Shown here: positions 40,588 to 51,843 of the stretch, piece by piece
Position numbering within the stretch: the first letter of the stretch is position 1
Layout of the letters: every line of letters starts with the position of its first letter
Assembly: GCF_002259595.1 (NCBI RefSeq)
Contig: NZ_MWWU01000002.1
Location: 310,001 to 374,000, forward strand
DNA from: Aeriscardovia aeriphila
GTDB taxonomy: Bacteria; Actinomycetota; Actinomycetes; Actinomycetales; Bifidobacteriaceae
Direction: 5' to 3'
DNA length: 64,000 nucleotides
The notes under the pieces: generated by a model
The model's input: only the letters and a program-made list of their open reading frames with translations
The model's database searches: none
Told to the model about the DNA's origin: nothing
Made by a program: the position numbers and the translations under genes

Positions 40588-41934
40588 TTAGTGTTGAGAA
40601 TTCTGATGGCGCTGGTCGCGGCGCTTCCTGCTCTGCTCATCCACCGGGTCGATTTCATCGTCTTCTGGACGGAAGAACACGGAACCAGCTTCCGTAGAAG
40701 CAAGGTCCATCAGGTTCTCAGCGGAATCTTCAGAAACGCGAGCGCGCTCGTCAGCGCCAATCTTTGCGCTCACCCCGCCCAGAGCACTCGAACCAGCAGC
40801 GGTACCCACCACAGAGCCCAAAGTTGCGTTATCACCGGGCTCTTGCGGTACACGCGCCGGCTGCATTTGTGTGCCCGAACTTGCTTGAGAAGGCGAACCT
40901 GAACGCGGTGCCAGTAAGTGGTCGACGACTTCGGCTTCCGTTAATCTTCCTGTAGCCGAATTATGAACCATCGCCGCACTCTTCTCTTTGAGCTCGGCGA
41001 CCAAAGTCTTCGGGTCAATCAGCTTGTAACCCTTACGAACGATGATGTGCTGCAAATGCTTGAGGTAGTTCACGGCACCTTCAGAAAGCTGAGTGCGCTG
41101 AGGCTTAATCCAGCCGATAATCATCGTGCGGTCCGTATCCAAACGCACAGTCGCCACTTTATCGGGGTTCAAATCCTCATTATCAATGCCAGTCGAAATA
41201 GTGTAAGCGTTCACAGTCTGGATAAGGTTGAGCATGGAAGCGCGGTCAGAAATCGTAATGACCTTGCTCGGCTTATTCGGCCAGATTGCCTCTTCAGCGA
41301 AGAAGAGAGATGAATCATCGCCCTGTTCGTACTTGATGAACGGGTAGTCGCGCAACTCGTCCAAGCTCACGCGGTCTCGGTCGGCCAGCGGATTGTTCGA
41401 GGAAAGGAACACGTGCAAATTCGCGCGGAAGAGAGGGTAGAAGGTCAAGTGCTTGGTGCGCAGCATGCGAGTGATGATGTCGCGGTTGTATTCGCTCAGG
41501 TACAGGATGCCGATGTCCGAGCGCATCTGTGCCACTTGCTCGATGATGTCGCGAGTAGTGGTTTCGCGCAGTGCCACCTCATACGATTCTGTGCGCTCGG
41601 TTCTCAACTGCTCAGCCAAAGCCTCCAAAGCGAACATGAAGTGCTGAGTGGAGATCGTGCACAGTTGGTTGCGTCCGCTCTTTTTGAGGAAGCGGTCTTC
41701 GATCATGCTGGCCTGCTCGACGAGCTGGCGAGCGTAGACCAAGAAGTGTGCGCCTTCCGAGGTCAGGGAGATTCCCTGGTGGGAGCGTTGGAAAATGGAG
41801 AACCCTAATTCTTCTTCGAGGTCGCGAACTTGTGCAGAAAGGGTTGGCTGGGAAATATAGAGATCCCTGGCCGCCTCGTTCATGCTTCCGGCTTCGACGA
41901 TCTTGATGATGTACTGCAATTGCAGAAGGGTCAT
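40588..41934 (-). CDS. LysR-family transcription regulator with a long C-terminal extension
   Basis: 448 aa from the ATG at 41934 (GGGAGCAGGA upstream); the frame extends further but lacks an RBS. The HTH is residues 1-60 (LQYIIKIVEAGSMNEAARDLYISQPTLSAQVRDLEEELGFSIF), followed by a type 2 periplasmic-binding effector domain (about 90-300). The HTH resembles the CysB/CmbR branch that controls sulfur genes, but the ligand cannot be read. A C-terminal extension of about 150 residues (Ser/Gly/Ala/Asp-rich, ending in a basic RKRRDQR segment) is not part of the family. There is only one Cys in the effector domain, so it is not OxyR-like. Confidence 0.88.
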   Translation of the reverse strand: MTLLQLQYIIKIVEAGSMNEAARDLYISQPTLSAQVRDLEEELGFSIFQRSHQGISLTSEGAHFLVYARQLVEQASMIEDRFLKKSGRNQLCTISTQHFMFALEALAEQLRTERTESYEVALRETTTRDIIEQVAQMRSDIGILYLSEYNRDIITRMLRTKHLTFYPLFRANLHVFLSSNNPLADRDRVSLDELRDYPFIKYEQGDDSSLFFAEEAIWPNKPSKVITISDRASMLNLIQTVNAYTISTGIDNEDLNPDKVATVRLDTDRTMIIGWIKPQRTQLSEGAVNYLKHLQHIIVRKGYKLIDPKTLVAELKEKSAAMVHNSATGRLTEAEVVDHLLAPRSGSPSQASSGTQMQPARVPQEPGDNATLGSVVGTAAGSSALGGVSAKIGADERARVSEDSAENLMDLASTEAGSVFFRPEDDEIDPVDEQSRKRRDQRHQNSQH

Positions 41935-42028
41935 TCCTGCTCCCTCTCGAGACACTTTTCTCCATAGATTACAGCATTCTTGTGAACACGTTATTACTCG
42001 GTGAAATGCCTGTCGGTATGAGGGCGCA

Positions 42029-42150
42029 CACCGTACAAGCCCCTGAGGTGCGTAGGTTGCTGGGGGGGGGTAAACTCCATCGCGCAAATACTCGCCGTAT
42101 AAGCCCTGACGTGAGGGGGCTTGCGGGGGGGGGGCTACTCCATCGTCACC
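42029..42150. repeat. Duplicated segment with two poly-G tracts between lysR and the ABC-F gene
   Basis: Two related segments, each running GTA(C/T)AAGCCC...TTGC(T)-poly-G-...ACTCCATCG. The G tracts are 9 bases (42062-42070) and 10 bases (42125-42134). The second abuts the stop codon of the ABC-F gene. Such long homopolymers occur nowhere else in the window. Confidence 0.75.
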
Positions 42151-43736
42151 AGCTCAAGGTAGGAATCATCCCACAAATCCTCATCACCATCGGGCAGCAA
42201 CAGCACACGCTCCGGGCGCAAAGCCTCCACAGCACCCTGATCGTGGGTCACCAAAACAATCGCACCCTCATACTTGGAAATAGCAGAGAGAATCTGATCG
42301 CGCGACTGCGGATCCAAGTTGTTGGTCGGCTCATCGAGCAGCAGAACATTAGCCTTCGACGTCACCAAAGTGGCCAGTGCTAATCTTGTTTTCTCACCAC
42401 CAGAAAGCACCGAGGTAGGCTTATCAGCGTCTTCACCCGAGAAGAGGAAAGAGCCCAAAATAGTGCGCGTCTGCGTGTTATCCAACTCAGGAGCCACATG
42501 CTGCAGATTCTCCAACACCGTGGCGTCATTATCCAAAGTGTCGTGTTCCTGAGCGAAATAGCCAATTTTGCAGCCATGCCCGTAAATCACTTCACCGGAA
42601 TCCGTCTGCTCCTGGCCAGCCAAAATACGTAAAGTCGTCGTCTTACCGGCGCCGTTATAGCCCAAGATTACCACCCTGGAACCGCGGTCAATCGCCAAAT
42701 CAATTCCAGTAAACACTTCGTTGGAGCCGAAGCTCTTGGAAATATTCTTGGCCATGATCGGCGTACGGCCAACCGGAGCTGGGGTAGGGAAGCGCAAATC
42801 AGCTACTTTCTCTGCCTTCTCCACCGGCTGAGTCTCGGCCAACAGCTTTTCAGCGCGACGAATCATCTGCTGAGCAGCCACAGCCTTCGTTGCCTTCGCG
42901 TGCAAGCGGATGCCTTCCTTCATCAAACGCTCCGCCTTCTTCTGAGCAACCTCACGCTCACGGCGAATGCGCTCCTCATCGGCGGCACGCTGCTTCAAAT
43001 ACGCCGACCAACCCAAGTTATACACGGTGATCGTTGCCGTGCGAGCATCCAAATGCCACACACGATTCACCGTTTCATCCAGCAGCTCAGTGGAGTGGGA
43101 AATGACGAGGAAACCACCCGGGTAGTTTTGCAAGAAGCGCTTCAACCATTCAATAGAATCCGCATCCAGATGGTTCGTCGGCTCATCCAAAATCAAGGTA
43201 TCCGCATCCGAGAAAAGAATGCGCGCCAACTCAATACGCCTACGCTGACCGCCGGAAAGAGTACCCAAAGGCTGGCGAAGAGTGCTCTCCTCAAGCCCCA
43301 AAGCCATACCCATCTTGATAGCCTCTGACTGAGCGGCATAGCCACCCGCATTGTCAAATTCAGCCAGAGTGCGGTCGTAGCGGTTCATCGCCTTTTCCAT
43401 CACGGCAGGGTCAGAGGAGGTCATCTCCTTCTCCGTCTTACGAAGGCGCTTCAAAAGATTACCAATATCGCGTGCATCCATAATGCGATCCAAAGCCATC
43501 TGCTGCGCATCGCCTACGTGCGTCGACTGCGGAAGGTAACCCAACTTGCCCGAAACATGAACAAAACCGGAAGCAGGCAGCATATCACCAGTGATGACGC
43601 GGGTCAGCGTCGTTTTGCCAGCACCGTTGCGGCCAACCAAACCCACGTGATCTCCCTTGGCAATATGGAAATTCATAGGAGCAAGCAGCTGACGTGCTCC
43701 GATACGGATTTCCAAATTCTGCGCTTCGATTCCCAC
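42135..43736 (-). CDS. ABC-F family ATPase
   Basis: 533 aa, GTG start with AGGAAAA upstream. Two soluble ABC domains without membrane segments: Walker A GRNGAGKTT and GYNGAGKTT, signatures LSGGQRRRIELARIL and LSGGEKTRLALATLV, and LDEPTNHLD and LDEPTNNLD. The ~80-residue linker between them (RRIRREREVAQKKAERLMKEG region) is Lys/Glu-rich, as in ABC-F proteins that enter the ribosomal E site. It acts in translation, either housekeeping or antibiotic protection; which cannot be told by eye. The gene is divergent from pyruvate oxidase. Confidence 0.93.
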   Translation of the reverse strand: MGIEAQNLEIRIGARQLLAPMNFHIAKGDHVGLVGRNGAGKTTLTRVITGDMLPASGFVHVSGKLGYLPQSTHVGDAQQMALDRIMDARDIGNLLKRLRKTEKEMTSSDPAVMEKAMNRYDRTLAEFDNAGGYAAQSEAIKMGMALGLEESTLRQPLGTLSGGQRRRIELARILFSDADTLILDEPTNHLDADSIEWLKRFLQNYPGGFLVISHSTELLDETVNRVWHLDARTATITVYNLGWSAYLKQRAADEERIRREREVAQKKAERLMKEGIRLHAKATKAVAAQQMIRRAEKLLAETQPVEKAEKVADLRFPTPAPVGRTPIMAKNISKSFGSNEVFTGIDLAIDRGSRVVILGYNGAGKTTTLRILAGQEQTDSGEVIYGHGCKIGYFAQEHDTLDNDATVLENLQHVAPELDNTQTRTILGSFLFSGEDADKPTSVLSGGEKTRLALATLVTSKANVLLLDEPTNNLDPQSRDQILSAISKYEGAIVLVTHDQGAVEALRPERVLLLPDGDEDLWDDSYLELVTME

Positions 43737-43987
43737 TTTTCCTCATTTCCGTGCACTTGTTTCGCCCCAACAGCCTAGCCGATAGAAAGGACGGGAGTGG
43801 GAGGAGAGGTGTGCGCGAGAAACGCAAGAAAAACAGGAAAATCTCTGTGGGTTACGCGCCAAGCGATTTTCTACTGGAGGTGATTGTCCACGCGATAACA
43901 TGAGTCGAAGGCACTGAAAAGTGCAGGCTTTCGCTTGCGCTCACAGTATCAACTGAGAGAGCCCCGTCAATGCTGACAGGAGAAATT

Positions 43988-45799
43988 ATGACTGAAGAAA
44001 AGAAGACAGTTCCAGCCTCTGTCGCCATGCTCAAGGTTCTTGAGGCATGGGGTGTCAAGAACGTTTATGGTTACCCAGGTGGTTCCTTCAACTCCACCAT
44101 GAACGCTCTGGACTTGGAGAAGGACAATATTAACTACGTTCAAATTCGTCACGAGCAGGTGGGTGCTTTGGCAGCAGCCGCTCATGCCAAGCTGACTGGT
44201 GAAATCGGCGTGTGCTTCGGCTCTGCTGGCCCAGGTGCTGTGAACCTTCTCAACGGCTTGTATGACGCTCGCGAGGATCATGCTCCTGTTCTTGCACTTG
44301 TTGGTCAGGTTCCTCACACCAACATGAACTACAACTACTTCCAGGAGTTCTCTGAGCTGCCAATGTTCTCCGATGTGGCTTGCTATAACCGCACCGTGAT
44401 GACTGCTGAGAGCCTTCCTTACGTCGTTGACAAGGCAATCCGCGAGGCTTACCGCAACCGTGGTGTCGCCGTCGTCATCATTCCAAACGATTTCGGCTAT
44501 GTTCAGATTCCTGACGAGCCATACGCTTCCGTCACCGTCGATGACAAGCCAGCTCCACTGCCAGTGGCAACCGATGATGAGGTGAGCCGCTTCCTCGAGC
44601 TCGTCAAGAAGGCAAAGCGTCCAGTCTTCCACGTTGGTTCTGGTATCAAGGGCAACGCCGATCTGCTCATGAAGCTTTCCGAGAAGCTGCAGATTCCAGT
44701 CACCATCACTGGTTTGGCCAAAGGCCTCGTCCCAGACGACTTCCCAGCAAACCTCGGCACTTTGAACCGTGCTGCAAGCAAGGCTGCTGATGAGGTGTTC
44801 GCTTCTGCTGATCTCGTGATCGCACTGGGCGCTGACTTCCCATTCGCCAACCTCGTCTACCGCACTCATCCATTTACCTTCGTCCAGATCGACGCCGAGC
44901 GTGCACAGTTCGGCCGTCACCACTTCCTGGATATGGGTATTTGGTCTGATTCGGGTGCCTTCTTGCAGAAGGCTCTCGACATGAGCACCCCAGCTGAGCC
45001 AAGCGGCTTCTACCAGGCAGCTGTTGAGGATATGAAGGGTTGGAAGGAATACCTGACTGGCCTGATGAACAAGGCTGACGGTCCACTCGAGTACGAGCAG
45101 ATTTATCGCGAGATCAACCGCGTCTCTGATCCAAACGCAGTGTACGGCATCGACGTTGGTGATAACATCATCAACTCCTTCCGCTTCCTCAACCTCACCA
45201 AGGATAAGAAGTGGACGATTTCCGCACTCTTCGCCACCATGGGTTACGGCGTTCCGGCTGCTATCGCAGGTAAGCTCGCCTTCCCAGACCGCCAGGTGTT
45301 CAACATCTCTGGTGATGGCGCCTTCTCCATGGTGATGCAGGATCTGCTCACCGAGGTGAAGTACAACTTGCCAATCATCAACATCGTCACCTCCAACGCC
45401 GCTCTGGGCTTCATTCGCTCCGAGCAGGAGGATGTCAAGATGAACTTCTCCGGCATCGATCTGCTTGACGCTGACTACGCCAAGGTTGCTGAGGCAATGG
45501 GTGTTGTTGGCATCACCGTTCGTACTTTGGACGAACTGGTTCCAGCATTCGATAAGGCTGTGGAAGTCACGAAGTCTGGCCGTCCAGTCCTGCTCGATTG
45601 CAAGATCACCAAGAAGCGTGGTCTGCCAGTTGAGGAGCTGGAGATTTCGTGGAAGGATGGCAAGGCTGTGGAGACCGTGTCTCAGGCATATCAGGACACC
45701 CATAAGCCGATGAGCGTGGAAGAGTTCTTCGAGTCCTATGATGGCTCTGCACTCAAGCCACTGCCATACTACTTCGAGAAGTTTGGCGTCACTGAGTGA
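43988..45799 (+). CDS. Pyruvate oxidase (phosphate-dependent, H2O2-forming)
   Basis: 603 aa from the ATG at 43988 (GGAG upstream), the same length as I recall for Lactobacillus plantarum Pox. It is a ThDP/FAD enzyme: YGYPGGSFNSTMNAL, the RHEQVGALAAAAHAKLTG block with the catalytic Glu, FGSAGPGAVNLLNGLYDAREDHAPVLALVGQ, the NYNYFQEFSEL segment, and a C-terminal ThDP fold with GDGAFSMVMQDLLTEVKYNLPIINIVTSNAALGFI. The close block-by-block match to lactobacillary Pox separates it from acetolactate synthase and oxalyl-CoA decarboxylase. It converts pyruvate, phosphate and O2 to acetyl-phosphate, CO2 and H2O2. Codon use is that of a highly expressed gene. A convergent NADH oxidase follows. Confidence 0.9.
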   Translation: MTEEKKTVPASVAMLKVLEAWGVKNVYGYPGGSFNSTMNALDLEKDNINYVQIRHEQVGALAAAAHAKLTGEIGVCFGSAGPGAVNLLNGLYDAREDHAPVLALVGQVPHTNMNYNYFQEFSELPMFSDVACYNRTVMTAESLPYVVDKAIREAYRNRGVAVVIIPNDFGYVQIPDEPYASVTVDDKPAPLPVATDDEVSRFLELVKKAKRPVFHVGSGIKGNADLLMKLSEKLQIPVTITGLAKGLVPDDFPANLGTLNRAASKAADEVFASADLVIALGADFPFANLVYRTHPFTFVQIDAERAQFGRHHFLDMGIWSDSGAFLQKALDMSTPAEPSGFYQAAVEDMKGWKEYLTGLMNKADGPLEYEQIYREINRVSDPNAVYGIDVGDNIINSFRFLNLTKDKKWTISALFATMGYGVPAAIAGKLAFPDRQVFNISGDGAFSMVMQDLLTEVKYNLPIINIVTSNAALGFIRSEQEDVKMNFSGIDLLDADYAKVAEAMGVVGITVRTLDELVPAFDKAVEVTKSGRPVLLDCKITKKRGLPVEELEISWKDGKAVETVSQAYQDTHKPMSVEEFFESYDGSALKPLPYYFEKFGVTE

Positions 45800-45994
45800 G
45801 TCAAAGTTCAAGTTTCGAGTTCTGGCCGGCGTCTCATTGTAGCCGGCCAGTAGCTCACAAGCTTCCTCGGGAGGCTCTCAGTACAGTCGGTTGATGCGCG
45901 AGTTTCATGAGCTTTGTGGTGTAAGCGCAGTGTAGTTTCATCATTGCGCAGTGTCTCACTGCAGGATGCGAATGTTCTTGAGCATTAACTGACG

Positions 45995-46033
45995 AATGGC
46001 GTGTGATGGTTTTCATCACGCGCCATTTTTTGT
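45995..46033 (+). terminator. Terminator of pyruvate oxidase
   Basis: AATGGCGTGTGATG (45995-46008) pairs with CATCACGCGCCATT (46014-46027, one T-G pair), then TTTTTG. It lies about 200 bases after the stop, beyond a first hairpin at 45822-45850. Confidence 0.85.
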
Positions 46034-46143
46034 TGCTGGGCGTTCGCTGTGTTCCTGTCGCCCGTCTGGTTTGCATCCGCTTTGTGTAGCGCCGATCTGA
46101 GGATGTGCTCGCTGTGTACATTACTCGTTTCGGGCATAGAAAA

Positions 46144-46175
46144 GGGCCTATCTCGCAGGAGATAGGCCCAAAATT
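46144..46175. terminator. NADH oxidase terminator (bidirectional shape)
   Basis: GGGCCTATCTC (46144-46154), GCAG loop, GAGATAGGCCC (46159-46169). It is followed by TTTTCT on the minus strand and AAAATTTTTT on the plus strand. Confidence 0.85.
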
Positions 46176-46265
46176 TTTTGGCTCACAGTCGGTGAACTGA
46201 GTTCACGCTCTGCGCTCGCTCACGCTCAGCCACTCGGCAGATTAGCCGCGCAGCTGTTCAGCTAC

Positions 46266-47615
46266 TCAGCGCAGTGCTTGCAAAGCTGCTTCGTTGATGT
46301 AGCTGTGAGGCTGGTTGAAGTGAGGCATGAAGAAGATGTCGCTCAGAGCAATCTTCTCAATGGTCACGCGCTCCTGAATGGCAAGGGAGAACATGTGAAT
46401 GGTCGCCGACATATCGTACTCACTCATCAGTTGAGCGCCGATCACCTCATGATTATCGCGACGATAGACGATGCGAATCTTCACCTCAGGGTTCTCACCT
46501 ACCTCGTTCATGAAGGCTGGCTTCTGCGTATCAGTGAGGTCCACCTGTTCAGCCTGAATACCACTCTGAGCAGCAGTTTCCACAGTCTGGCCGGTGCACA
46601 CCATCTTCAAATCGAACAAGCACAAGCCGGACGAGCCTTCAACACCGCAGGATTCAATATCGCGACCGGCAATATTCATGCCAGCGATCATGCCTGAACG
46701 AACAGCATTCGTTGCCAGAGCAATGTAGGACGTGGCCTGAATGGAGTTGTCGAAAGTGGTAGCGCAATCGCCCACAGCATACACATCTGGGTCGCTCGTG
46801 CGCTGATGCTTGTCAACGAGAATGGCGCCGTTACGGAACAGCTGCAAGTGGCCGCGGGCCAAAGAGGTGTTCGGACGGAAGCCGATGCACATAATCACCA
46901 GGTCGGTGTCATACGTGCCCTTGTTGGTCACGACAGAGCGGACGCGATCCTCGCCCTCGAAACGCTGAACGAGCTCACCCAGGTGAATTTCAATGCCCTT
47001 GGAACGCATGCGATCAGCCATGACTTCGGAGAAGTCACGATCAAAGTGAGTTCCCAGAATGCGGTCGAGAGCATCGATAAGAATAACCTTCTTACCTGCA
47101 CGCTGGTAAGCCTCAGCAAGTTCGGCTCCAATGTAACCAGCACCAACAACGGTGACTGTCTTGACACTGTCATCATGCTTCAGCTGTTCAACAGCCTTCT
47201 GAGCATCCTCATACTGCTTTGCACGCTGAACATAAGGCAGGTCAATTCCTGGAAGACGAGGGATGATAGGCGAGGAGCCGGTGGCCAGCACCAGCTTGTC
47301 GTAGCTTTCGCTTCCTTCCTCACCATCCTTGGTCTTGTATGTGACAGTCTTCTTCTCATAGTCGATGCCAGTGATCTCAGTTTCCGTGCTCACCTTGGCA
47401 CCTGCAGCTTCCAACTGTTCGCGGCTGGAATAGAACAGACCGTCACCAGTGCTGATCTGGTTTCCAATCCACAGAGCCATACCGCATGCGAGGAAGCTCA
47501 TATATTTATCGGCATCAAAAACGTGAACCTGTGCGTCCTTATCGAGGTCCAACACATGCGTTGTAGCGGAGATACCGGCATGGTTTGCACCGATGACGAT
47601 GACCTTCTGACCCAT
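46266..47615 (-). CDS. NADH oxidase (water-forming, Nox family)
   Basis: 449 aa from the ATG at 47615 (AAAGGAG upstream). It is a FAD/NAD-linked disulfide-reductase-fold enzyme: FAD site KVIVIGANHAGISATTHV, His12, the single redox Cys44 in SFLACGMALWIG, NAD site VTVVGAGYIGAELAEAYQRAGKKV, and VYAVGDCATT. This pattern is that of the cysteine-sulfenic-acid Nox of streptococci and lactobacilli, which reduces O2 to water. The CoA-disulfide reductase of the same family is the alternative. It regenerates NAD+ and removes O2 beside a pyruvate oxidase. Its terminator is at 46144-46175. Confidence 0.92.
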   Translation of the reverse strand: MGQKVIVIGANHAGISATTHVLDLDKDAQVHVFDADKYMSFLACGMALWIGNQISTGDGLFYSSREQLEAAGAKVSTETEITGIDYEKKTVTYKTKDGEEGSESYDKLVLATGSSPIIPRLPGIDLPYVQRAKQYEDAQKAVEQLKHDDSVKTVTVVGAGYIGAELAEAYQRAGKKVILIDALDRILGTHFDRDFSEVMADRMRSKGIEIHLGELVQRFEGEDRVRSVVTNKGTYDTDLVIMCIGFRPNTSLARGHLQLFRNGAILVDKHQRTSDPDVYAVGDCATTFDNSIQATSYIALATNAVRSGMIAGMNIAGRDIESCGVEGSSGLCLFDLKMVCTGQTVETAAQSGIQAEQVDLTDTQKPAFMNEVGENPEVKIRIVYRRDNHEVIGAQLMSEYDMSATIHMFSLAIQERVTIEKIALSDIFFMPHFNQPHSYINEAALQALR

Positions 47616-47708
47616 GATTCTCCTTTGAAGTCGGACAGTAAGTGATCCACCCTTCATCTTAACGAAGAAAGATGGTTAAGAAGGCATCAGTTACAAAATT
47701 ACGCTGTA

Positions 47709-47753
47709 GAAAAAGGCCAGGCGACAGGCTTTAGTTTTGTCGCGAGGCCTTTA
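47709..47753 (-). terminator. Terminator of fetAB
   Basis: On the minus strand AAAGGCCTCGCGACA (47753-47739) pairs with TGTCGCCTGGCCTTT (47726-47712), with two mismatched positions. A T-run follows. It lies 27 bases after the fetB stop. Confidence 0.75.
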
Positions 47754-47779
47754 CTGTACTGACAATCTGGAGAAATGCT

Positions 47780-48715
47780 TTAGGAGCGAGGCTTGAGATT
47801 ACCAAAGACGCTGACTCGGCTGTCCGAAGTGACAGGGCTGTACTGGTCTCGGGAGGTGAAGCTCGTCTTGTAAATCAGCAGCAAGATCAGTGACGCCGAG
47901 GTGAGGGTCAAGGAAGCCAGCGCGTACAGGATGACCAGCTGGTAAGCGGCGGCTCCACGGGGGTCAAGGCCTGCGATAACCTGACCTGCCATCATGCCAG
48001 GGATCAACACCAAACCAGAGCTTGCCAAAGTGGCCACCGTCGGCAACATTCCCAGGCGAATTGCGGAGAGAACCGAGGTTCGCGAGGACTCCCATGGGGT
48101 GGCGCCCAAGGCGAGCATCATGTCAATCTCGTCGGCTCGGGAGCGCATGGATTCATAGAAGCGCGACATAGCAACAGCGGTAGCTGACACCGTATTGCCC
48201 AAAATCATGCCGGTAATCGGAATGACGACCTGCGGCGAGTACCAGGGGCGTGGGCGAATGACGGCCTCCACCAAAATGCCCATAATGAGCAGGGTTGTGA
48301 TGAGAAGGGTGAGGAAAACAGGTAAAGCCATGCCGTGAGGGATGCCTTTAGCGCGAGAAATCGTGATTTGCACGCCGCCGACGATCATGAGAGCGACCAA
48401 GCTGAAAACAATGATCACGTTGTTTTGTTGAATGACCCACTGGATGATGAGAGCCATGGCGAGCAGCTGGAGGGCGGCGCGGGCTGCGGAGAAGAGCAGG
48501 GATTTGCTTACTTCGAGCCTGAGAGCCCAGGAGATTGCTGCGGCAACGAGAATCATGGCAAGCGCGACCAGCAAGCCCCACTGGTCAACGATGTAGGTTC
48601 CTGCCGGTTGCAGTCCGTTGGACCGGGTGGCAAGAGTTGCATGGGCTGCGAGAGTCGGCTGGGCAGTAAGTGTTGCCTGTGCGGCAAGGGGTGTGAGAAG
48701 CGAAAGTGTGGCCAT
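47780..48715 (-). CDS. fetB: Iron-export ABC transporter permease FetB-like (UPF0014/YbbM)
   Basis: 311 aa with about seven membrane helices. Family marks: SAARAALQLLAMALIIQW, IPITGMILGNTVSATAVAMSRFYESMRSRADEIDMMLALGATPWE, AIRLGMLPTVATLASSGLVLIPGMMAGQVIAGLDPRGAAAYQLVIL. In E. coli FetAB exports iron and helps against oxidative stress. An N-terminal extension of about 40 residues consists of repeated T-L-A-A-x-A-T-L/Q-P pieces. FetA lies 11 bases upstream, so the two form one operon. It is next to the oxygen-consuming enzymes, which fits the proposed role. Confidence 0.9.
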   Translation of the reverse strand: MATLSLLTPLAAQATLTAQPTLAAHATLATRSNGLQPAGTYIVDQWGLLVALAMILVAAAISWALRLEVSKSLLFSAARAALQLLAMALIIQWVIQQNNVIIVFSLVALMIVGGVQITISRAKGIPHGMALPVFLTLLITTLLIMGILVEAVIRPRPWYSPQVVIPITGMILGNTVSATAVAMSRFYESMRSRADEIDMMLALGATPWESSRTSVLSAIRLGMLPTVATLASSGLVLIPGMMAGQVIAGLDPRGAAAYQLVILYALASLTLTSASLILLLIYKTSFTSRDQYSPVTSDSRVSVFGNLKPRS

Positions 48716-48726
48716 AATTATCCTCT

Positions 48727-49461
48727 TTACTCCTCAGAAGTCGAATCGTGTACAGGCATTACATGTAAGCCGGTGGAGTCGAGCAGCAGCGTTCGTGAGG
48801 CGAAGCCATCAGGAGCACGGTGGCGAACACGCAGTGCTGATAATCCAAAGTCGGCGGCCAAACGAGCAACATACTCGCCTTCAGTGTGCGCCGACTCATC
48901 GTCCAAAGCGGCGTCGATCTCATCAGCCAGCAGCACGCGCGGGCGGGTGAGAAGGGTACGCAGCAGGCTCACACGGGCCAGCTGACCGCCGGAGAGGGAA
49001 GCGGTTTCGCGCTCCAGCTCAACATCGGGCAAGAGCAAGGCATCCAAGCCTTCGCGAAGCTGTTGGTCGGTAGGGCGAGTGGCGCCGTTATGATGCGCGA
49101 TTTGCAGCGACCAGGGCATGAGCAGTGCCTCACGAACGGTGTTGCCCGTCAGAATGGCTTTTTGATGCACATAAGCCACCTGCCTACGCCACATCTGCGG
49201 GGACATGGTGCTAGCGGCAACACCGTCGAGCTCCAAAGTTGCTGTGCCGTGCGGGCGAAGCTGAGCGATAGTCTCCAAAAAGCTCGATTTACCCGAGCCA
49301 GAAGGGCCGGTGATGTCGATAATCTCGCCGGGGAAGACGTCGAGGGACAGATCATTGAACACCTCAACATGTACCGTCGAGCCCTCGCGAGGGTGGTCGA
49401 CGGCGTAATGAGCATTGCGCACTCGCAGCAGCGGAGTAGACGATGAGGATGTGTGATTCAT
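48727..49461 (-). CDS. fetA: ABC transporter ATPase FetA-like
   Basis: 244 aa from the ATG at 49461 with a GGAGG RBS; the frame stays open to 50334 but that part is antisense to the next gene. Walker A GPSGSGKSS, Q-loop VHQKAIL, signature LSGGQLARVSLLRTLL, Walker B RVLLADEIDAALDDE. It partners the UPF0014 permease directly downstream. A dispersed octamer (48838-48845) falls in its C-terminal third. It is divergent from the Tet(M)-like gene with 84 bases between. Confidence 0.88.
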   Translation of the reverse strand: MNHTSSSSTPLLRVRNAHYAVDHPREGSTVHVEVFNDLSLDVFPGEIIDITGPSGSGKSSFLETIAQLRPHGTATLELDGVAASTMSPQMWRRQVAYVHQKAILTGNTVREALLMPWSLQIAHHNGATRPTDQQLREGLDALLLPDVELERETASLSGGQLARVSLLRTLLTRPRVLLADEIDAALDDESAHTEGEYVARLAADFGLSALRVRHRAPDGFASRTLLLDSTGLHVMPVHDSTSEE

Positions 49462-49545
49462 GGCCTCCAGAGTACCAGCACTCGGGGCCGGCAAAGCTAG
49501 CGTAGACAAGCCGATCAACCGCTGAGATGGAGAGGAAAAGGTAAA

Positions 49546-51843
49546 GTGGAAGCCATGAATTTGCCCCTCAGAAAAACTGCTGAACAGCCTCGCCGCCCGC
49601 TGGTCATCGGCCTGATGGCTCACGTCGACGCAGGAAAAACCACGCTTTCCGAAGGCCTGCTCTACACGGCCGGGTCGCTGCGATCTTTGGGCCGCGTCGA
49701 TGAGCGCACCTCCTTTCTCGACCCCGAAAAGCTGGAAAAGCAGCGCGGCATCACGATTTTCACCCACCAAGCCCAGCTGGATTACCGCGGCCAGCCCATC
49801 ACGCTGCTGGACATGCCTGGCCACATCGATTTTGCGGACCAAGTGGAGCAATCCTTGGCTGTTCTCGACGTGGCAATCTTGGTGGTTTCGGCTTCTGATG
49901 GGGTAGAGGCGACGACCTTGTTGTGGTGGCAGATTCTGGCTCGCTTGGGCATTCCGACAATCCTCGTCGTCAACAAGATTGACACTGCAGGCTTTGATCG
50001 CGCGGCGCTGCTCGCGCATATTCAGGCGCGTCTGGGCGAAAAGTGCATTGATTACGGCGGTCCGGACGATGTTGTGCCACGGGGTGGAGCTTCGACGGAG
50101 GTTGATGGCGAGCATGATTCTTCTGTCGTTGGGCTTGCCGATTACCTCACTTCTGAGGCGGCCGAGCAGTTGGCGGGTCTCGACGATCGCCTCCTCATGC
50201 GTTACCTCGACGATGGCAGCCTTGACGAGCAAGTGGTGCGCGAGCTTTTCGCCACCCGCGCGCTCGTCCCCGTTCTCTTTGCCTCCGCTTTGCATCTGCA
50301 AGGTGTGACGCGCTTGCTTTCCTTGCTCACACACTTGGCCGAACCAAGATTTCCACAGCAGGGAATCAGTGGCGAAGGAGAGCTTTCCAGCAGTGATAAT
50401 CTAGGGCCACACCAGGGCGAGTTTGGGGCGAGAGTTTTCCGAATTTCGCATGATTCCAAGGGTTTGCGCCTTACCTGGGTGCGCGTGACCAGCGGGCAGT
50501 TGGCAGCCAAGCAGGAAGTGAAGCACCAAGCCGCGAGGGTGAGTGGCGGGCAGGCTGGAGGCGAATGCTTCGAATCGGCAACCAACTGGCTGAAACAAGG
50601 CGACGAGCAGGGCGAAAAAGTCGACGAAATTCGCGTATACGACGGCGCCAAGTTCACCACAGTCTCGAGCGTGCAAGCAGGAGACGTGTGCACCCTGGTC
50701 GGCCCACAAAAAACGTGGCCAGGGCAGGGTTTGGGGTGTGAATCTGATTGCGCACCAGCAAGCGTGAGGCCAGTGCTGCTTTATTCTGCCCACCCAGCCC
50801 CGGGCGAGCAAGCCGACGACCATGCCGTTCTTGTTGCGCTGCGACAACTGGCCGAGGAAGACCCTCTGCTCAACGTGATTTGGAATGAGACTGCCCAGCG
50901 CGTCGAACTGAGCATTATGGGAGAAATCCAGCTCGAAACTATCACCCAACGGCTTCGCGACGAATACCACCTCGCCGTGGAATGTGAAGATGCGGGCGTC
51001 GTGTACCAAGAGACGATCAGTAAGCCCATCGAGGGAGTGGGTCATTTTGAGCCGTTGCGCCACTATGCCGAGGTTCACGTGCTGCTCGAGCCAGGCCCAC
51101 GGGGCAGTGGAATCAGTTTGAGGAACGCGACGCCAGCCAACAGCTTGGCACCCCACTGGCAGCGCGACATCATGCACCATCTTGCCGAGAAAATGCATAA
51201 GGGAGTGCTGCTTGGCGCGCCACTGACCGATGTGAAAATCACCCTGCTGGGAGGTGCGGCCAATATTAAGCACACGTCGGGTGGAGATTTTCGTGAGGCC
51301 ACCTATCGTGCAGTTCGCGAAGGCCTGATGTTTTTGAAGCAGCAGCAGGCGTGCGTGTTGCTGGAGCCGTGGTATCGCTTCCGTTTGGAGGTGCCCGTCG
51401 AGCAGCTGGGCCGTGCGATGAGCGATGTGGAGCGCATGCATGGAAGGATGGATCCGCCGCAGATGCCAGGTGGTGCGACAGCTGGTGGTGCTGGCGTAAG
51501 CGGTGGTGCTGGTGCCTCGGGTGGTGCTGGAGCTGCTGGCTTTGGGGCTGGCTTTGCTGTAGTCGAGGGCGAGGCTCCGGTGTCGCAAATGCGCGGGTAT
51601 GCGAGGGAAGTTCGCGCCTATACGCAGGGCAAAGGCAGTTTCTCTTGTGTTTTCGCCTCTTCAGCTCCTGTCGACGACCAAGAATCTGTTGTTGAAGCCG
51701 CCCAGTACGACCCGATGGAGGGCGGGGAGGATACTCCGGATTCGGTGTTTTGCGCGCATGGTGCTGGTTTTACCGTTGACTGGAAGGATGTTCCTCGTTT
51801 CCAGCATCTGCCGAATTTCTGGCAGCTTGGTGGTGGGCACTGA
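49546..51843 (+). CDS. Tet(M)/Tet(W)-like ribosomal-protection GTPase with inserts
   Basis: 765 aa, GTG start with GAGGAAAAGG upstream. EF-G-like: G1 AHVDAGKTTL, G2 RGITIF, G3 DMPGHIDF, G4 NKID, then domains III-V like Tet(M) (the VEQLGRAMSDVERMHGRM and SQMRGYAREVRAYTQGKGSFSCVF blocks). Tet(M) has about 640 residues. Here an acidic insert follows domain II, and a Gly/Ala repeat (about 643-672) sits in the domain IV/V region close to where Tet(M) reaches the drug site. It looks chromosomal and native to the family rather than a mobile tetracycline-resistance gene, and resistance should not be assumed. One dispersed octamer at 50394-50401. Confidence 0.85.
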   Translation: MEAMNLPLRKTAEQPRRPLVIGLMAHVDAGKTTLSEGLLYTAGSLRSLGRVDERTSFLDPEKLEKQRGITIFTHQAQLDYRGQPITLLDMPGHIDFADQVEQSLAVLDVAILVVSASDGVEATTLLWWQILARLGIPTILVVNKIDTAGFDRAALLAHIQARLGEKCIDYGGPDDVVPRGGASTEVDGEHDSSVVGLADYLTSEAAEQLAGLDDRLLMRYLDDGSLDEQVVRELFATRALVPVLFASALHLQGVTRLLSLLTHLAEPRFPQQGISGEGELSSSDNLGPHQGEFGARVFRISHDSKGLRLTWVRVTSGQLAAKQEVKHQAARVSGGQAGGECFESATNWLKQGDEQGEKVDEIRVYDGAKFTTVSSVQAGDVCTLVGPQKTWPGQGLGCESDCAPASVRPVLLYSAHPAPGEQADDHAVLVALRQLAEEDPLLNVIWNETAQRVELSIMGEIQLETITQRLRDEYHLAVECEDAGVVYQETISKPIEGVGHFEPLRHYAEVHVLLEPGPRGSGISLRNATPANSLAPHWQRDIMHHLAEKMHKGVLLGAPLTDVKITLLGGAANIKHTSGGDFREATYRAVREGLMFLKQQQACVLLEPWYRFRLEVPVEQLGRAMSDVERMHGRMDPPQMPGGATAGGAGVSGGAGASGGAGAAGFGAGFAVVEGEAPVSQMRGYAREVRAYTQGKGSFSCVFASSAPVDDQESVVEAAQYDPMEGGEDTPDSVFCAHGAGFTVDWKDVPRFQHLPNFWQLGGGH
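51473..51560 (+). repeat. GGTGGTGCTGG-type minisatellite inside the Tet(M)-like gene
   Basis: About five imperfect copies of GGTGGTGCTGGx encoding Gly-Gly-Ala-Gly units. In-frame length change would keep the protein intact. Confidence 0.7.

Follow-up and report, generated by a model that had tools for sequence, protein, structure and literature searches.

The window analysed here is a stretch of 64,000 nucleotides from Aeriscardovia aeriphila (NCBI RefSeq assembly GCF_002259595.1, contig NZ_MWWU01000002.1, positions 310,001 to 374,000 of the forward strand), taken from a genome of 1,631,097 bases in 12 contigs with a completeness score of 84%, and the subject of the analysis is a block of four genes, pox, nox, fetB and fetA, which are predicted to encode a pyruvate oxidase, an NADH oxidase and the permease and ATPase of an ATP-binding cassette (ABC) transporter. 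None of the four genes is disrupted, and their coordinates are given below; pox and nox are convergent, and fetA, fetB and nox share one direction.

42135..43736, minus strand: ABC-F ribosomal-protection-like ATPase, flanking gene (NF000355, 406 bits, cut-off 380)
43737..49545, no strand: inserted block holding pox, nox, fetB and fetA, flanked by the divergent genes for ABC-F and the EF-G-like protein
43988..45799, plus strand: pox, predicted SpxB/LpPOX-type pyruvate oxidase, 603 amino acids (TIGR02720, 812 bits; best match in the Protein Data Bank (PDB) 1y9d)
45994..46028, plus strand: terminator-like hairpin of 16 pairs downstream of pox, from a site scan with a count at chance level
46144..46169, both strands: terminator-like hairpin of 11 pairs between the convergent pox and nox, from the same scan and likewise at a chance-level count
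46266..47615, minus strand: nox, predicted Streptococcus-type water-forming NADH oxidase, 449 amino acids (NF046103; best PDB match 2bc0)
47780..48715, minus strand: fetB-like ABC permease of the UPF0014 family (PF03649, 217 bits)
48727..49461, minus strand: fetA-like ABC ATPase, 11 bp upstream of fetB (NF007601, 132 bits, below the cut-off of 292)
49546..51843, plus strand: EF-G/Tet-protection-like GTPase, flanking gene (NF012153, 352 bits, below the cut-off of 775)

The block is a real unit of gain, beyond what can be put down to chance, and it is recognized as inserted because the genes that flank it adjoin one another without it in two congeneric genomes. These two genomes (G002 and G003), which represent the other two Aeriscardovia species sequenced, keep the gene order LysR, ABC-F, EF-G-like, UvrA, UvrC, and the gap between the aligned ends of their ABC-F and EF-G-like genes is at most 195 and 124 bp, respectively, with no pox, nox or fet gene in it, whereas the same gap in the window measures 5.8 kb and holds pox, nox, fetB and fetA. 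Identity between the window and these genomes is 83-84% for ABC-F, 43-49% for the EF-G-like protein and 76-80% for UvrA. The block is thus present in 2/2 A. aeriphila genomes and in 0/2 of the other Aeriscardovia genomes. The second A. aeriphila genome is one metagenome-assembled genome, which appears under the labels G001, G190 and L002, taken to be the same and counted once, and its contig stops inside fetA; its pox is 99% identical to that of the window. The ratio of nonsynonymous to synonymous polymorphism (pN/pS) between the two A. aeriphila genomes is 0.056 for pox, 0.058 for nox and 0.048 for fetB, and the genes of the block are under purifying selection, which shows that they are used but not that they are used jointly.

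Alignment of the breakpoints at the block ends yielded no clear junction. An imperfect inverted repeat of 32 nucleotides (72%), which may be due to chance, is found at the ends of the block (43713-43744 and 49532-49563), where its copies overlap the start regions and ribosome-binding sites of the ABC-F and EF-G-like genes; because the repeats are imperfect and overlap these ribosome-binding sites, no mechanism of insertion is claimed.

The sequence-only reading of this DNA had described the first gene of the block as a Lactobacillus-type pyruvate oxidase, and this identification holds. The gene begins with ATG behind the ribosome-binding site AGGAGAAATT, and its product matches positions 1-574 of the 575 in the curated profile TIGR02720 (pyruv_oxi_spxB) and, at 812 bits, clears the cut-off of 638. 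The best solved relative, 1y9d, is the Lactobacillus plantarum enzyme LpPOX, and the window protein is identical to it at 9/9 residues checked in the alignment (S36, E59, F121, Q122, R264, D447, N474, F479 and E483), positions with roles in binding of thiamine pyrophosphate (TPP), in the phosphate site and in electron relay. Profile and residues together identify pox as an SpxB-type pyruvate oxidase, with acetyl-phosphate and H2O2 as its predicted products. It is like the SpxB/LpPOX enzymes of Lactobacillaceae and Streptococcus in its full-length match, its active-site residues and its identity (up to 76% in Lactobacillaceae genomes), and differs from them in that its host is an actinobacterium without pyruvate formate-lyase (PFL). 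That the gene might instead encode an acetolactate-synthase-like or quinone-linked, PoxB-like enzyme is very improbable: such enzymes share the TPP-enzyme fold and their models do match the protein, but the score is only 339 bits with the quinone-dependent model and 295 with the best of those for acetolactate synthase, both below the models' own cut-offs, and the gene falls within the tree of lactobacillar SpxB enzymes.

The ancestry of pox was evaluated by means of a tree built from 47 pyruvate oxidase sequences, for which the nearest relatives were picked from 350 Lactobacillaceae genomes that were themselves drawn from a larger number. The A. aeriphila gene nests inside the Lactobacillaceae, in line with the Lactobacillus-type label that the sequence-only reading had given it, and groups with the genes of three genomes (G221, G324 and G348; 72-76% identity) with support of 93/89, a node that is not starred. 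Its exact sister is unsure, because an alternative in which the five nearest Lactobacillaceae genes form a clade without A. aeriphila is not rejected (p = 0.16). The Alloscardovia-type pox lies elsewhere in the Lactobacillaceae part of the tree, and shared ancestry of this type with the Aeriscardovia gene is rejected, since forcing the two into one clade costs 132 log-likelihood units (p-AU 6e-6). Because this single clade is rejected, the tree indicates at least two separate gains of pox from lactobacilli within the Bifidobacteriaceae. The Alloscardovia genes are like that of Aeriscardovia in being lactobacillar-type enzymes in this family (the A. criceti copy is 68% identical), and they differ from it in their separate tree position and, in A. 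criceti, in the lack of nox beside pox. Eight further pyruvate oxidases from Bifidobacteriaceae, which may include those of Bifidobacterium asteroides and B. tibiigranuli, form a distant group in the tree at 42-46% identity; the enzymes of these two species are treated as O2-related in the accessible text of two papers (PMC3447821, PMC9004370). Content of G+C at third codon positions (GC3) is 64.7% in the window pox, close to that of the other window genes measured (61-69%) and above that of two of the nearest relatives (14.7 and 41.2%), and therefore fits a gain that is old and has since been ameliorated.

Several further features of the pyruvate oxidases were noted in the course of these comparisons. 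An apparent relative in Lacticaseibacillus pantheris at 80% identity was discarded as a best-segment artefact, as the gene is frame-broken and 61% identical overall; pox is split over frames both in this species (L027 8001-9810) and in Alloscardovia omnicolens DSM 21503 (L026 8001-9816), and a genome that seems to be of the same A. omnicolens (G006) has a pox with an internal stop, which may reflect either a pseudogene or a sequencing error. An Alloscardovia-type pox nested in the Alloscardovia clade occurs in G154 (L044, group g6), which suggests transfer within the family, and G140, G141, G148, G149 and others each carry at least two different pox genes above the cut-off, of types that fall in deeply separate groups.

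The second enzyme, which the sequence-only reading had called a water-forming NADH oxidase convergent to pox, is likewise confirmed at the level of its family. It passes NF046103 (H2O-forming NADH oxidase) with 646 bits against a cut-off of 600, its nearest solved chain is 2bc0, and it retains H12 together with C44 in the motif FLACG, the single redox-active cysteine required for a four-electron reduction, which, according to the accessible part of PMC9004370, decides water formation. The gene is thus assigned as a water-forming NADH oxidase, with water as the predicted product. While nox resembles the NF046103 enzymes and 2bc0 in its score and in its retained histidine and cysteine, it differs from them in its affinities: its closest relative is a gene of Parascardovia denticolens (G185) at 73% identity, joined to it in the tree at 100/98, and no match in 395 Lactobacillales genomes exceeds 55%, the identity being that given by the search itself. 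A lactic-acid-bacterial origin of nox is therefore not clearly indicated. Among 189 Bifidobacteriaceae genomes, 15 carry a gene that passes NF046103, namely P. denticolens, both A. aeriphila and twelve members of group g4 with small genomes, presumably Gardnerella; a joint Bifidobacteriaceae clade that includes the Gardnerella-type copies is not rejected (p = 0.08). Scardovia, Aeriscardovia, Parascardovia and Gardnerella are named as aerotolerant in the accessible text of PMC2045100, and the distribution of nox matches this set of genera in part, with the other two group g15 genomes failing NF046103.

The transporter pair next to nox had been taken for the iron exporter FetAB, and of this claim the family assignment stands while the function must be stated with more reserve. 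The permease passes PF03649 (UPF0014) at its 217 bits against a gathering score of 22.6 and is accompanied by an ATPase, an arrangement shared with E. coli FetAB (YbbLM), but it differs from that system in falling far short of the FetB equivalog TIGR00245 (116 bits against 410), as the ATPase does of its own cut-off, and in pairwise identities to the E. coli K-12 proteins of 27% for FetB and 34% for FetA; a PDB search with the permease gave only matches with E values of 0.19 or worse. Because the curated FetB and FetA cut-offs are widely missed, the pair is called FetAB-like, a name given by similarity only, and its predicted role would be iron export. In Salmonella, ybbL and ybbM mutants are described as H2O2-sensitive in the available portion of PMC5719062.

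The significance of pox in this host depends on the other routes by which pyruvate might be converted to acetyl units. The statement that bifidobacteria usually handle pyruvate by PFL is borne out by a profile search with TIGR01255, which detects the enzyme in 168/189 Bifidobacteriaceae genomes and in 151/161 of the good ones, and it gains force from the exception: none of the four Aeriscardovia genomes has a match to this profile, nor was any candidate seen at first look. Of the 17 other genomes without a match, 14 are members of the groups g10, g12 and g13, no larger than 1.4 Mb, and the remaining three (G068, G161 and, by inference, G188) are less than 77% complete. Pyruvate oxidases above the TIGR02720 cut-off occur in 51/189 genomes of the family, and the A. 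aeriphila pair stands alone among these 51 both in lacking PFL and in carrying the Streptococcus-type nox as well. According to the accessible text of PMC11707648, pyruvate dehydrogenase (PDH) is absent from all Bifidobacteriaceae, and pyruvate:ferredoxin oxidoreductase (PFOR) is absent outside a termite-associated clade. Because PFL is missing and PDH and PFOR are reported absent, the latter two on the strength of this family-wide statement, pox would be the only known route here from pyruvate to acetyl-phosphate and C2 units, and an O2-dependent one. Acetate kinase, which the proposed conversion of acetyl-phosphate to ATP needs, was found in 4/4 Aeriscardovia genomes, so that pox, acetate kinase and NADH oxidase, the genes of the aerobic pyruvate oxidase (POX)-acetate kinase pathway, occur together in one genome; the pathway operates in aerobic lactobacilli, as described in the part of PMC4053349 that was accessible.

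These results are best accounted for, with a probability of roughly two in three, by a reading that sees in the block an acquired module for aerobic use of pyruvate, equivalent to the POX-acetate kinase bypass of lactic acid bacteria, in which nox would take over from lactate dehydrogenase. When O2 is present, pox would convert pyruvate, phosphate and O2 to acetyl-phosphate, CO2 and H2O2, a reaction that is known for the family and predicted here, and acetate kinase would then convert acetyl-phosphate to acetate and ATP, with a gain of one more ATP per pyruvate. Reoxidation of NADH by nox with O2 would spare pyruvate from reduction to lactate and leave it available for pox. Under anoxic conditions, most of the pyruvate would end up as lactate, and acetyl units would come from the phosphoketolase shunt, which supplies them in Bifidobacteriaceae. 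The FetAB-like pair might lower free iron, and with it Fenton chemistry, while peroxide is being made; this is conjecture, and the least certain step. The activities, flux, regulation, iron export and benefit from air attributed to A. aeriphila in this scheme are those that its genes would predict. The O2-linked extra ATP that the sequence-only reading had proposed thus keeps its genetic basis in pox and acetate kinase, but pox by itself is unexceptional, given its frequency in the family.

A number of observations weigh against the module. Catalase was found in 0/4 Aeriscardovia genomes by a profile search that was aimed, among peroxide scavengers, at catalase alone. Single absences are weak in the window genome, at 84% completeness, though the genus as a whole agrees, two of its genomes being 92-93% complete. 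The FetAB-like genes are no oxygen marker and no sign of an oxic niche, because 101/189 genomes of the family carry them, anaerobic relatives and Bifidobacterium adolescentis included, so that their part in the combination which the sequence-only reading took as a mark of such a niche has to be given up. Neither a shared promoter nor a shared regulator was found (promoter-like sites number 2, compared with 2.7 in shuffled sequence), terminator-like sites in the region number 6 against 5.5 in shuffles, although the hairpins between pox and nox are long nonetheless, and the region has no match in Rfam. No close nox stands beside pox at the other pox loci examined, whose flanks mostly extend over about 1.5 to 8 kb, and the nearest relatives of pox and nox differ, so that the two genes were not clearly gained together.

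Part of this evidence would be expected if the block had accreted by chance, in a gap that tolerates insertions and where pox, nox and fetBA landed separately, pox and nox being functional and fetBA a passenger engaged in ordinary metal handling. The differing relatives of pox and nox, the absence of their neighbourhood elsewhere and the want of a shared promoter all suit this explanation, as does the spread of fetAB-like genes: G002 and G003 carry the pair at other places, with neighbours that differ between the two and from those in B. adolescentis and G154, and because neighbours differ among the genomes compared, fetBA seems to move often. It is nevertheless rather unlikely, since it would be a striking coincidence for three functions linked to oxygen or peroxide to meet in the same place, and the whole block is kept in both A. 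aeriphila genomes under purifying selection. Less probable still is that pox has been retained chiefly because its H2O2 harms neighbouring cells, while nox and FetAB shield the cell that makes it. Oral streptococci and lactobacilli use H2O2 in this way, peroxide formation is a property of the SpxB family as a whole, and with catalase absent the peroxide would accumulate; but the habitat of A. aeriphila LMG 21773, the pig caecum (PMC5540593), is largely anoxic, and that PFL has been lost suggests a role in metabolism.

A stronger form of the module reading can be put forward only tentatively and is doubtful as a whole: A. aeriphila may have moved its step from pyruvate to acetyl units from PFL, which oxygen kills, to a lactobacillar pox, which requires oxygen, so that air would serve as an energy substrate without a respiratory chain, and pox, nox and fetBA would have been assembled at a single site and kept together as a selected module. 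The interpretation offered in the sequence-only reading is partly supported, and three results beyond its reach sharpen it: the sites without the block in the congeners, the lactobacillar origin of pox apart from that of Alloscardovia, and the lack of PFL. If the module reading is true, the air tolerance to which the species owes its name would have a concrete genetic cause that can be tested, and the mostly anaerobic Bifidobacteriaceae would have gained oxygen use from lactobacilli on at least two separate occasions. The lack of PFL gives a sharp prediction, in that pyruvate should go to lactate without O2, whereas with O2 a single gene should direct part of it to acetate and ATP.

All the enzymes belong to known kinds, and what is new to the literature searched is their host and their arrangement. 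This search, which covered few subscription papers, returned no report of a pyruvate oxidase in Aeriscardovia or Alloscardovia, no account of the absence of PFL from Aeriscardovia, and nothing that links a Bifidobacteriaceae pyruvate oxidase with horizontal gene transfer beyond the B. asteroides genome paper (PMC3447821), in the accessible text of which Aeriscardovia appears once, in a reference title.

Two observations concern the surroundings of the block. The divergent ABC-F and EF-G-like genes that it splits, both of which would act on the ribosome, form a pair that is conserved in the genus and may be intrinsic drug tolerance genes. The LysR regulator beyond the ABC-F gene (40588-41937, 449 amino acids) is matched by its congeneric copies over residues 2-313 only, and its C-terminal part of about 135 amino acids looks like a private extension of A. 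aeriphila.

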